Below, in pieces: positions 36,974-40,758 of a DNA stretch of 64,000 nucleotides. The DNA comes from Bradyrhizobium sp. S69 (GTDB taxonomy: Bacteria; Pseudomonadota; Alphaproteobacteria; Rhizobiales; Xanthobacteraceae): NCBI RefSeq assembly GCF_009766005.1, contig NZ_LMUK01000010.1, positions 1-64,000 on the forward strand, in the 5' to 3' direction. Position 1 is the first letter of the stretch; each line of letters opens with the position of its first letter. Under the pieces are notes generated by a model. It was given only the letters and a program-made list of their open reading frames with translations, was not told where the DNA came from and ran no database searches. Made by a program: the position numbers and the translations under genes.

Positions 36974-38107
36974 TTAGCGCGGCGCGATGTCGCCTTGCGC
37001 CCATCCGGCGCGTGTGCGCTCGCGAAACTCGGCGAAATTACCGTGCGCGATCGCATCCCTGATGTCGTGCATCAATCGTTGGTAATAAGCGATGTTGATC
37101 TCCGACAGCAACATCGCCCCCAGCGTCTCGCCCGAACGCACCAGGTGATGCAGATAGGCACGCGAATAGCCTGAGGTCGACGGCCAATTGCTTTCCTCGT
37201 CAAGCGGTCGCGGATCGTCGGCATGGCGCGCGTTGCGCAGATTGATCTGGCCAAACCGCGTGAACGCCATGCCGTGACGGCCGTTGCGGGTCGGCATCAC
37301 ACAATCGAACATGTCGACGCCGCGCGCGACCGCTTCCAGCATGTCGTCGGGCGTGCCGACGCCCATCAAATAGCGCGGCCGGTCCGGCGGCAGGATCGGC
37401 GCGACCTCCTCGATCATCGCCAGCATCACCGCCTGGGGTTCACCGACCGCAAGGCCGCCGATCGCGTAGCCGTGAAATCCGATCTCGATCAGACCTCGCG
37501 CGCTGGCGTGGCGCAGGCCGGCGACGTCGCCGCCCTGGACGATGCCGAACAGCATGTAGCCCTCTGGCGCGGTCTCGAAGGCGCGCTTGCTGCGTTCGGC
37601 CCAGCGCAACGACAATTGCATCGCGCGCTCGATCTCGGCGGGCTCTGCCGGCAGCCGCACGCATTCATCCATTTGCATCGCGATGTCGGAGCCGAGCAGC
37701 CGCTGCACCTCGATGGAGCGCTCCGGCGACAGCTCGATTTTGGCGCCGTCGATATGCGAGCGGAAGGTAACGGCCTTTTCGGTGACCTTGCGCAACTCCG
37801 ACAGCGACATCACCTGGAAGCCGCCGGAATCGGTCAGCATCGGACCGCCCCAGCGCGTAAAGGTCTGCAGGCCGCCCAGCGTCGCGATCCGTTCGGCCCC
37901 GGGCCGCAGCATCAGATGATAGGTGTTGCCGAGCACGATATCGGCGCCGGCATCGCGCACCTCGCGCCAATGCATGCCCTTCATCGCGCCCGCCGTGCCG
38001 ACCGGCATGAAGGCGGGTGTGCGCACGGCGCCATGCGGCGTCGTCAGCCGGCCGGTGCGGGCCAGGCCGTCGGTCGCGGCCAGTTCGAAATGGTTGGGTA
38101 CGCTCAT
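36974..38107 (-). CDS. tgt: tRNA-guanine transglycosylase lacking the zinc-site residues
   Basis: Exchanges G34 for preQ1 in tRNAs with GUN anticodons. At 377 residues it has the family length (E. coli 375). The nucleophile region ([12 protein letters not shown]) and [15 protein letters not shown], which hold the two catalytic Asp residues, are intact. The usual zinc site C-x-C-x2-C plus a downstream His is altered: positions aligned to E. coli Cys302, 304, 307 and His333 read Ser306, Trp308, Thr311 and Ile337. Flanking sequence ([15 protein letters not shown]) is conserved, so this is not a frameshift. queA lies on the same strand 1.6 kb away. Confidence 0.93.
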
Positions 38108-38215
38108 GCGTCAGCTTATTGCGTAACAAGGGCTCCCTGTTCAACCTTGTTGAGGGCGATTTTGCCGCCAAAAGCCATTGACGCCGGCGAGGGCCTGCCG
38201 CATAAGCTCCGCGCC

Positions 38216-38287
38216 ATGAATACGACCACCAAACGCACCGCAAAAACCAAAGCACCCTCCGGGGGCTCGGGAGCCGTGCGCGCGTAG
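38216..38287 (+). CDS. Candidate Thr/Lys leader peptide of asd (attenuator)
   Basis: A 23-codon ORF reading MNTTTKRTAKTK and then APSGGSGAVRA. Thr occupies codons 3, 4, 5, 8 and 11, and Lys codons 6, 10 and 12, so 8 of the first 12 codons are Thr/Lys, the end products of the pathway of the next gene, asd. The segment 38252-38279 can form a hairpin around CTCC/GGAG, and GGGGCT (38262-38267) can instead pair with AGCCCC (38314-38319) of the terminator stem. The ribosome site is weak, with no clear GGAG within 15 bases, the main doubt. Confidence 0.55.
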   Translation: MNTTTKRTAKTKAPSGGSGAVRA

Positions 38288-38312
38288 TCGAACGATCGCA
38301 TCATCTGAACCG

Positions 38313-38344
38313 AAGCCCCGCCTGAAAAGGTCCGGGGCTTTTTT
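38313..38344 (+). terminator. Intrinsic terminator in the asd leader
   Basis: AAGCCCCG (38313-38320) pairs with CGGGGCTT (38333-38340), with an inner CCT/AGG around a GAAA loop and six T at 38339-38344. It ends 34 bases before the asd start and after the leader stop codon, as an attenuator would. Confidence 0.8.
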
Positions 38345-38378
38345 ATTGCCTGCTGTTCAAATAACTGGAGACACACCC

Positions 38379-39404
38379 GTGAAGAACGATCTCGTTGTTG
38401 CCATTGCCGGCGTGACCGGCGCGGTCGGCGCCGAATTCATCGCCACCATGGACAGACGCCGATTTCCGGTCGGGAAATTGAAGGCGTTGGCGAGCGCACG
38501 CTCGGCCGGCAAGACCGTCGATTTCCGCGGCGAGAGGATCGTGATCGAGGAGCTCACCGAGCGCTCGTTCGACGGTGTCGACATCGCGCTGTTCTCGGCC
38601 GGCGGCGGCATCTCCCGAAAATTCTCGCCCGCGGCGGTAAAGGCCGGCGCCGTCGTGATCGACAATTCGTCGGCGTTCCGGATGGATCCCGACGTGCCGT
38701 TGGTGATCCCGGAGATCAACGCGCACCGCATCCGCGAACACAAGGGCATCATCGCGGTTCCGAATTGCTCGGCGATCACCGCGCTGGTGCCGCTGTGGCC
38801 GATCCACCGCGTCAACCGCATCAAGCGCCTGATCCTGTCGACCTATCAGGCGGCCAGTGGCGCAGGTGCCGCGGCGATGGCCGAACTGGTGGAATCGACG
38901 CGCGCCAGCCTCAACGGCGAGGCCTACCCGCCGAAGGTGATGCCGCATCCCTACGCCTTCAACCTGTTCAGCCACAATACCGCTATTGACCCCGAGACCG
39001 GCTACAACGACGAAGAGACAAAGGTCATCAAGGAGACCCGGAAGATCTTCGAGGACGAGCGCATCGCGATCGGCGTGACCTGCGTGCGGGTACCGGTGCT
39101 GCGCGCGCATTGCGAAGCCATCACCTTCGAATGCGAACGGCCGATCTCGGAGCACGAGGTGCGCGCGATCCTGTCGACGGCGCCGGGCGTCCGGATCGTG
39201 GACGACCGGGCCAAAAACTATTTCCCGATGCCGGTCGACGCGTCAGGCCAGGACGACGTGCTGGTCGGCCGTATCAGGAAGGATCTGAGCGACACGAGCG
39301 GTCATTCGATCTCGATGTTCGTGTCGGCGGACCAGCTCCTGAAGGGCGCGGCGTTGAATGCCATCCAGATCGCGGAGTTGTTGCCGGAGCGCGCGATCGC
39401 GTGA
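38379..39404 (+). CDS. asd: Aspartate-semialdehyde dehydrogenase
   Basis: Second step of the Lys/Thr/Met branch: aspartyl-phosphate to the semialdehyde with NADPH. 341 residues with GVTGAVG cofactor loop, ALFSAGGGISRKFSP, the active-site Cys in VPNCSAIT and a catalytic His in RAHCEAI. GTG 38379 has GGAG 9 bases upstream. It is divergent from tgt and has its own leader with a Thr/Lys-rich ORF and terminator. Alphaproteobacteria often carry another asd near leuB, so this may be a paralogue. Confidence 0.88.
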   Translation: MKNDLVVAIAGVTGAVGAEFIATMDRRRFPVGKLKALASARSAGKTVDFRGERIVIEELTERSFDGVDIALFSAGGGISRKFSPAAVKAGAVVIDNSSAFRMDPDVPLVIPEINAHRIREHKGIIAVPNCSAITALVPLWPIHRVNRIKRLILSTYQAASGAGAAAMAELVESTRASLNGEAYPPKVMPHPYAFNLFSHNTAIDPETGYNDEETKVIKETRKIFEDERIAIGVTCVRVPVLRAHCEAITFECERPISEHEVRAILSTAPGVRIVDDRAKNYFPMPVDASGQDDVLVGRIRKDLSDTSGHSISMFVSADQLLKGAALNAIQIAELLPERAIA

Positions 39405-39412
39405 GGTGAATT

Positions 39413-39538
39413 CGTAGGGTGGGCAAAGCCACCGGGTCGCGCGAATGCGCGCCCGATGACAGGCTCCCCGTGCCCACCAGGGCAAATTCGGCACGAAGGT
39501 GGTGGGCACGGCGAAAGCGCGCCTTTGCCCACCCTACG
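39413..39538. repeat. Dispersed palindrome with GTAGGGTGGGCAAAG ends
   Basis: GTAGGGTGGGCAAAG (39414-39428) and CTTTGCCCACCCTAC (about 39523-39537) bound the element; an inner GGTGGGCACGG/CCGTGCCCACC pair nests inside. It follows the asd stop codon. The remainder of the gap to queA (39539-39681) shows nothing. Confidence 0.75.
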
Positions 39539-39681
39539 ATTTCTACGATTCAAGCGCGGTTCGCCGGGACGACTTAGTGAGCCAAACATCGTCAAATCGG
39601 GGACTGCGCGTCCGGCGCAGTCGTGAGGCTCAACCGCGGCTACTCTCCTACACCAGCGTTATCAGGATAACGAGGCTGGCT

Positions 39682-40758
39682 TCACGCGGGCGCGCGAAAC
39701 AAAAGGCAGGCATCACCGTAGGAATAAAACCGGTAGCCGTTGGCGATCGCGTGGGCATAGGCCTGTTTCATGCTGTCGAGGCCGGAGAACGCCGAGACCA
39801 GCATGAACAGCGTCGAGCGCGGCAAATGGAAATTGGTCAGCAAAATATCCACCGCGCGAAAGCGATAGCCGGGCGTGATGAAGATCGAGGTTTCGTCCGA
39901 AAACGGCTGGATGGTGCCGTCGTCGGCCGTGGCACTTTCCAGTAGCCGCATCGAGGTGGTGCCGACCGCAACGATACGGCCGCCGTTGGCGCGGGCCGCG
40001 TTCAGCGCGGTCGCGGTCTGCGCGGAGATGCAGCCCCATTCGGCGTGCATCCGGTGCTCGCTGGTCTCGTCCACCTTCACGGGGAGGAACGTCCCTGCCC
40101 CGACATGCAGGGTCAGCCGGTGAAGGCCGACGCCATGGCCGCGCAGCGCGGTCTCCAGAGCCGGCGTGAAATGCAGCCCCGCCGTGGGGGCCGCGACCGC
40201 GCCCTCATTGACCGCGAACATGGTCTGGTAATCGGCGGTGTCCTGATCGTCGGGCGTGCGCTTGGAGGCGATGTAAGGCGGCAACGGCGGCGACCCGAGA
40301 TCGGAGATGGCCTGGTCGAGCGCGGGCCCGTGAAACGAAAACGACAGCGTGACTTCGCCGTCGCTGCCCTTGGCCTCGACCTCGGCGTCGAGATGGCCGA
40401 GCAGGCACACCCTGCCCTCATTGCCAAAACGGACCACATCGCCCGGCGCAAGCTTCTTGGCCGGCTTCACCAAGGCCTGCCAGCGCGAACCGTCGAGCCG
40501 CTTGATCAGCGTCGCCTCGATCTTCGGCTCGGTCTCGCGGCCGATGCGGCGGCCCTTGAGTTGGGCCGAGATCACCTTGGTGTCGTTGACCACCAGTTGA
40601 TCGCCCGGCTCCAGCCATTTCGGCAGGTCGGCAATGAACTGGTCGCGCAGCACGTCGCCGGGCTGCACCACGAGCAGCCGCGCGGAGTCGCGCGGGCTGG
40701 CCGGCCGCAGCGCGATATTTTCAGCGGGAAGTTCGAAGTCGAAGAGATCGGTGCGCAT
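39682..40758 (-). CDS. queA: S-adenosylmethionine:tRNA ribosyltransferase-isomerase
   Basis: Converts preQ1-tRNA to epoxyqueuosine using SAM ribose. 358 residues with [23 protein letters not shown] at the start (split here after PASPR), [37 protein letters not shown] and [19 protein letters not shown], all family hallmarks. Product Tgt is encoded nearby on the same strand but separated by asd, which runs the other way. Cyclophilin genes lie upstream and are probably co-transcribed. Confidence 0.95.

Follow-up and report, generated by a model that had tools for sequence, protein, structure and literature searches.

In Escherichia coli, the thrL leader (Rfam RF00506; anatomy given from general knowledge) places a Thr-rich leader peptide, overlapping hairpins and a terminator before genes of the aspartate family. 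The leader upstream of asd2, a second aspartate-semialdehyde dehydrogenase gene of Bradyrhizobium sp. S69, is built alike, but its target is asd2 and not thrABC, Lys takes the place of Ile as the second residue, and its ORF is predicted to be leaderless. The trpL (rnTrpL) attenuator of Sinorhizobium meliloti is also alphaproteobacterial and its transcript starts at the leader AUG, as predicted for asd2; unlike the asd2 leader, it carries Trp codons and its target is trpE(G) (available text of PMC7298713).

The nearest published case found is S. meliloti SEP5, a small ORF that clusters six Thr and three Lys codons in the 5'-UTR before an 'aspartate dehydrogenase' gene; its translation was detected by Ribo-seq and Western blot, and it was suggested to be a leader peptide (available text of PMC10117765). 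The gene downstream of SEP5 is probably the ordinary asd. In contrast to the asd2 leader, SEP5 is reported to be conserved only in Sinorhizobium, and the available text of PMC10117765 describes no RNA switch. The statement of the original prediction that no such attenuator on asd was known in this group is accordingly qualified by SEP5. A full-text search, which covered few subscription papers, listed no paper on a Bradyrhizobium asd attenuator or on this leader family, while the proteobacterial survey of Vitreschak et al. (2004) may list related elements. A term search for asd gave no hit in the main texts, as far as these were available, of PMC4842269, PMC5082802, PMC4833913, PMC2965389, PMC8632094, PMC3766115 and PMC1273637. 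The kind of attenuator is known, and its target, its combination of Lys and Thr codons and its spread appear to be new as far as searched.

Leader ORF and predicted promoter of asd2

The window, a stretch of 64,000 nucleotides from Bradyrhizobium sp. S69 (contig NZ_LMUK01000010.1, positions 1 to 64,000, forward strand), contains the features collected in Table 1. Direct reading bore out the predicted 23-codon ORF with five Thr and three Lys among codons 1 to 12: Thr stands at codons 3, 4, 5, 8 and 11 and Lys at codons 6, 10 and 12, which makes T3-T5, K6, T8, K10, T11 and K12 the candidate control codons. Likewise, GGGGCT at 38262-38267 and its complement AGCCCC at 38314-38319 are both present, and the T6 end of the terminator lies 34 nt before the asd GTG. 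The predicted target is an asd by profile, yet it is a second paralog and not the housekeeping copy. Its product exceeds the cut-offs of the equivalog models NF011456 (429.7 bits, cut-off 223) and TIGR01296 (396.3 bits, cut-off 324.2) and contains the Pfam domains PF01118 and PF02774; the closest proteins among the matches listed in the genome contig collection are from Bradyrhizobium, with at most 90% identity. The other asd of the same genome is located on contig G000:C9 and is 45% identical to asd2. The asd2 gene sits between tgt and queA, both queuosine genes on the opposite strand (window 36974-40758), and its predicted promoter is divergent from tgt.

Table 1. Features of the asd2 leader region, in positions of the window.
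Feature	Position	Strand	Details
Predicted promoter	38178..38206	+	TTGACG 38178-38183, 17-nt spacer, CATAAG 38201-38206
Leader ORF, MNTTTKRTAKTKAPSGGSGAVRA	38216..38287	+	23 codons; ATG 38216, stop codon TAG 38285-38287
Predicted protector (1:2) hairpin	38223..38290	+	fold of 38216-38290 of the window, -26.0 kcal/mol
Predicted antiterminator, 5' arms	38262..38280	+	GGGGCUCGGGA 38262-38272, GUGCG 38276-38280 (fold)
Predicted antiterminator, 3' arms	38297..38319	+	CGCAU 38297-38301 to AGCCCC 38314-38319 (fold)
Predicted intrinsic terminator	38313..38344	+	stem 38313-38323 / 38328-38330 and 38333-38340; T6 38339-38344; -16.8 kcal/mol
asd2, second aspartate-semialdehyde dehydrogenase paralog	38379..39404	+	341 aa; profile matches

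Conservation was assessed in 105 asd loci, namely those of 25 genomes of the window's genus, among them the genome of the window, and the best 80 of 573 genome-contig candidates; 16 genomes of other families, which have only an ordinary asd of about 41-46% identity, were left out. Seven Bradyrhizobium loci are duplicates of the same assemblies and are contained in the counts of 105 and 86 loci, but not in the sets of 79 and 73. A short upstream ORF with at least five Thr or Lys in 10 residues was found in 98 of the 105 loci, which include the best 80 of the 573 candidates (91 of 98 without the seven duplicates), compared with 27 of 822 random stretches taken from the genome-contig loci, and a chance ORF was rejected by this control. 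At a threshold of at least seven in 10 residues, the numbers were 91 of 105 loci, again including the best 80 of 573, and none of 822 random stretches. Among the 105 loci, those without a leader by the criterion were L098, L100, L103, L108 and L111, which belong to Phycisphaerae or Phycisphaerales, UBP4 and one other bacterium, and L095 and L096 from two Alphaproteobacteria; the absence from L103 is uncertain because only 150 nt of its upstream region are present. For some of the distant loci, an in-frame ATG further upstream than the counted one may be the start of the leader.

Among the matches listed, all 86 Bradyrhizobium-type loci (79 distinct) have a leader. Among these matches, 73 distinct leaders are 23 aa long; K6, K10 and T11 are invariant in them, and T5 and T8 are kept in 71 and 68, respectively. 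Variability at the three codon positions of these 73 listed leaders is 0.128, 0.108 and 0.219, and this roughly twofold excess at the third position suggests that the reading frame of the leader is under selection. A T-run of at least five follows the hairpin in 79 of 79 distinct Bradyrhizobium-type loci among the matches listed; outside this type, 16 of 33 leaders have a T-run of at most two.

The promoter is conserved as well. Among the matches listed, TTGAC is kept in 78 of the 79 distinct Bradyrhizobium-type loci, and CATAAG follows at exactly 17 nt in 75; TTGAC was found within 70 nt before asd in none of the 86 loci, and none of the 79 has a tetramer resembling a Shine-Dalgarno sequence within the 14 nt upstream of the leader ATG. 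The -10 box is separated from the leader ATG by 9 nt in the window; among the matches listed, 72 of the 86 Bradyrhizobium-type loci have a separation of 8 nt. With this spacing, the transcript should start at or next to the leader AUG, and the leader ORF is predicted to be translated from a leaderless mRNA. In B. japonicum, 192 mapped starts fall exactly on the annotated start codon (available text of PMC4842269).

Predicted folds and the proposed switch

A protector hairpin had been proposed at 38252-38279. Folded on its own, this hairpin reaches -10.2 kcal/mol; the longer fold gives a larger protector, which pairs CGCAC (38234-38238) with GUGCG (38276-38280), overlaps the control codons and would hold segment 2 when no ribosome is stalled. 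In eight Bradyrhizobium leaders, the protectors range from -18.5 to -29.3 and their shapes vary. The pairing of GGGGCT with AGCCCC is present in the folds too, within an antiterminator that is larger than had been claimed: 38262-38272 pairs with 38304-38305, 38310-38312 and 38314-38319, and GUGCG pairs with CGCAU, at -25.7 kcal/mol. The segment 38314-38319 is common to the 3' arm of the antiterminator and the terminator.

The effect of the ribosome was modelled by masked folds. With a stall at T3, T8, K10 or T11, the nascent RNA adopts the antiterminator at -25.7 kcal/mol, and a stall at K12 gives the same structure with a short footprint (-25.7 kcal/mol) but, if the footprint is longer, a weaker version of it (-18.3 kcal/mol). 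With the ribosome at the stop codon, the terminator alone remains (-18.6 kcal/mol), and without a ribosome, protector and terminator fold together. Since the minimum free energy structure of the full-length RNA includes the terminator in every ribosome state folded, antitermination must be kinetic, with the order of synthesis being decisive. The locus thus displays a short ORF with many codons for the amino acids that the regulated pathway produces (seen in the ORF and its conservation), a predicted terminator between leader ORF and gene, and a mutually exclusive antiterminator that depends on ribosome position as predicted by the masked folds.

The leader is therefore very probably a ribosome-mediated transcription attenuator that would adjust the second, backup asd to the supply of Thr and Lys; transcription start, stalling and read-through are steps that we infer. 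RNA polymerase would initiate at the leader AUG or at most about 3 nt away from it, and the ribosome would load on the leaderless mRNA. With ample charged Thr-tRNA and Lys-tRNA, the ribosome would reach the stop codon, where its footprint would cover the antiterminator's inner arms (about 38276-38301); the terminator could then form and transcription would end before asd2. When Thr or Lys is short, the ribosome would stall within codons 3-12 and mask the 5' side of the protector; GGGGCUCGG...GUGCG would then pair with CGCAU...CCGAAGCCCC before the 3' arm of the terminator is made, and asd2 would be transcribed.

Taken by itself, the window gives a less clear picture, and here lies the support for a reading without any regulation, in which the 5'-UTR is ordinary and the terminator constitutive or the ORF due to chance. 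The fold of the region has a z of only -1.08 against dinucleotide shuffles, and between 37900 and 38600 a consensus scanner detected neither a plus-strand terminator nor a promoter. Among 300 synonymous recodings, 79.7% pair at least as well as the native sequence. At least eight Thr or Lys in 11 residues have a probability of about 5e-7 at the composition of four neighbouring proteins, a figure obtained post hoc. Rfam scans gave nothing noteworthy in this region: no match to the family RF00506 (Thr_leader) was found at gathering score in the window, nor at E up to 10 in 38100-38400, and membership in that family was rejected for lack of a covariance-model match. Given the weak z, scanner and recoding results, the window alone is insufficient proof of an attenuator, and conservation decides.

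Pairing across the leaders

For the pairing tests, 119 rows were thinned to 36 leaders of less than 86% likeness, without L138, in which the arm missed the pattern, and L112 and L120, which are copies of L001 and L007. Measured against synonymous recodings, pairing of the 3' part of the ORF with the 5' side of the terminator in these leaders is stronger on average (mean z -1.70), and 19 of the 36 lie at or below the 5% level. In an arm-swap test from which the G/C core was excluded, the inner arm prefers its own partner across the 36 leaders, with a double-centred energy of -2.49 compared with a permutation mean of 0 and a minimum of -1.78, and none of 10,000 permutations was as good. The same was true of the 28 leaders from outside Bradyrhizobium (0 of 10,000), and the eight Bradyrhizobium leaders tested alone gave no significant preference (1,073 of 10,000).

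On alignment A1 (27 rows), 91.4% of the terminator cells are paired and 11 cells are two-sided, with none of 500 shuffles as high. The antiterminator is paired in 73.6% of cells compared with 36-48% when slid, and its covariation is modest: 4 of 500 shuffles reached its percentage paired, 19 its 16 two-sided cells and 26 its covariation score, while the numbers of pairs showing two-sided change and of additional pair types were not above shuffles (212 and 292 of 500, respectively). RNAalifold recovered only the terminator on A1. We think that the modest count for the antiterminator arises because MAFFT columns slip between families, and the alignment-free swap test was used alongside for this reason.

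Family-wide conservation together with the arm-swap test argues against a leader region without regulation and makes that explanation hardly tenable. The probable attenuator of the original prediction is hence supported, as the start, the Thr/Lys codons, the terminator and the promoter are kept in relatives and the alternative pairing covaries across families. The leader might instead act mainly in trans, supplying a small RNA or peptide in the manner of rnTrpL and peTrpL of S. meliloti, with attenuation being secondary. The predicted terminated product would be a short leaderless mRNA like rnTrpL (available text of PMC7298713), and the tail of the peptide is also conserved within Bradyrhizobium; however, the tail codons double as antiterminator arms, and outside Bradyrhizobium the peptide sequence changes while the Thr/Lys content and the pairing partners stay, so that a mainly trans-acting role is very improbable.

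Related leaders and the second asd genes

A covariance model was built from 27 leaders, the window being one of them, and its match to the window in the own genome has an E value of 3e-28. At E of at most 0.1, matches were obtained in 171 of 385 alphaproteobacterial genomes, many of them weak or short and probably due to chance. At E of at most 1e-4, 14 of 71 genomes in the family of the window's genome matched, with only the three Bradyrhizobium below 1e-20, and the asd2 leader thus seems to be unevenly distributed across this family. We read 51 hits (L112, L113, L120-L168), 24 of which precede asd. Of the other 27, 13 precede a threonyl-tRNA synthetase gene (thrS) and four a dapA homolog; five of these 17 genes were named by profile (L129, L139 and L158 as thrS, L113 and L161 as dapA) and the rest by eye from the N-terminal sequence. 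The last ten hits include three before DUF1127 proteins (L135, L152, L164), which have the same hairpin body with other peptides such as ...MTRSGGP..., and one before a GNAT acetyltransferase (L133, leader ...QTHSGGPSE...).

The thrS and dapA leaders share with the asd2 leader the control codons, the G-rich segment and the GGCCCCGCC...GGACGGGGCC hairpin. They differ from it in that thrS leaders are rich in Thr with little Lys and dapA leaders have few Thr and few Lys codons. Leaders with runs of Thr codons precede genes for short threonyl-tRNA synthetases of about 400 aa in L129 and L139 (profiled) and in L130-L132, L141, L151, L153, L155, L156, L159 and L160 (by eye). The thrS products of L129 and L139 matched the model only from position 171-172 and therefore lack the N-terminal part; that of L158 matched from position 1. 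A second candidate attenuator occurs in the same genome as asd2 (L113 1501-1631, G000:C12:23028-23158, minus strand, E 3.6e-5), where the leader MITNPCTIALSKKVPLPGT and a terminator-like hairpin precede a dapA paralog (TIGR00674, 218 bits). Leaders with the hairpin body of L113 also lie before dapA-like genes in L157, L161 and L162.

The thrS leaders serve as an internal control for the amino acid that is sensed, being of the same build before a gene for Thr only; the 13 leaders include two identical peptides (L156, L160), and three of their genes were named by profile, the other 10 by eye. Lys makes up 99 of 822 residues (12.0%) in the asd leaders compared with 8 of 325 (2.5%) in the thrS leaders (P 3.5e-8, a value that is too small because the sequences are related), and at least two Lys are found in 35 of 36 asd leaders but in only one of 13 thrS leaders. 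Lys is hence five times commoner in asd than in thrS leaders and is probably the second signal. The pathway that contains asd supplies both Lys and Thr. Thr might nevertheless be sensed alone, with the Lys codons being incidental, for example as A-rich codons that keep the 5' end unstructured. This would agree with Thr being the commonest residue in the asd leaders (23.4%), with the use of Thr and little Lys in thrS leaders of the same build, and with T11 being as invariant as K6 and K10. The Lys enrichment, the invariance of K6 and K10 in all 73 leaders among the matches listed and the supply of Lys as well as Thr through asd speak against it, and we consider sensing of Thr alone rather unlikely. 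Sensing of both amino acids is thus our preferred reading, with Thr being the surer signal, sensed with high probability, and Lys a likely one. The Lys codons of the Bradyrhizobium leaders among the matches listed are AAA and AAG in a ratio of 160:12, compared with 9:37 in four window genes, in which AAA is the rarer Lys codon (9 of 46). The distance from the end of the last Thr or Lys codon to the GGG core has a median of 7.5 nt (range 0-28).

No U-run follows the hairpin in the asd leaders L101, L102, L104, L107, L109, L136, L140, L144, L148, L150 and L166, and in several of them GUCUCUC can pair with the GAGAGAC Shine-Dalgarno region. Eleven of the 16 leaders with a low T-run were folded, and with segment 3 taken up, the predicted access to the Shine-Dalgarno sequence rises by more than 0.05 in nine (0.06 to 0.34) and by 0.00 and 0.01 in the remaining two. 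As it also rises by at least 0.16 in three of seven terminator-type controls, translational control in the lineages without a U-run stays a weak lead.

The leader goes along with a second copy of asd. Two asd genes are present in the 25 genomes of the window's genus, the second one of G016 being in two pieces. Outside Bradyrhizobium, two asd matches were found in 22 of 22 genomes tested that have a leader before asd, while 17 of 20 genomes without a model match have one asd and none was found in three, all incomplete; both sets were picked by covariance-model match. A midpoint-rooted tree of 90 asd proteins, in which branches are long and bootstrap values unsettled, places 37 proteins with leader and seven without in one group (100/97 support), apart from the other 46, and the leader label needs three changes. 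The tree and the two-copy counts indicate that the leader belongs to the second asd clade.

Leader-type control of the housekeeping asd of this genome was rejected, its upstream region (L002) showing none of the leader features sought. Upstream of the ordinary asd in L028, L029, L031 and L199, there are Thr/Lys-rich ORFs of unrelated sequence, e.g., MSNLHIIFTTKTTTAKRAVTKTGA; in L199, a terminator-like hairpin and T-run follow the ORF. These ORFs possibly represent a second origin of the same control. The ORFs before the ordinary asd in L186, L187 and L192 pass the Thr/Lys threshold with a peptide that looks unlike a leader.

We tentatively suggest that these leaders form an alphaproteobacterial attenuator family, not found in Rfam, that may place backup paralogs (asd2, the N-terminally short thrS and the dapA paralog) under starvation control by Thr and/or Lys. 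In such a family, asd2 would simultaneously sense two end products of its branched pathway, and in lineages without a U-run the sensor would control translation through release of the Shine-Dalgarno sequence in place of read-through.

The attenuator would provide a regulatory reason why Bradyrhizobium and other Alphaproteobacteria have a second asd where the syntheses of Lys, Thr, Met and Ile branch. Together with the dapA-paralog candidate in the same genome, it suggests that leader-peptide attenuators are under-annotated in Alphaproteobacteria, and the asd2 leader would offer a natural sensor of two amino acids.
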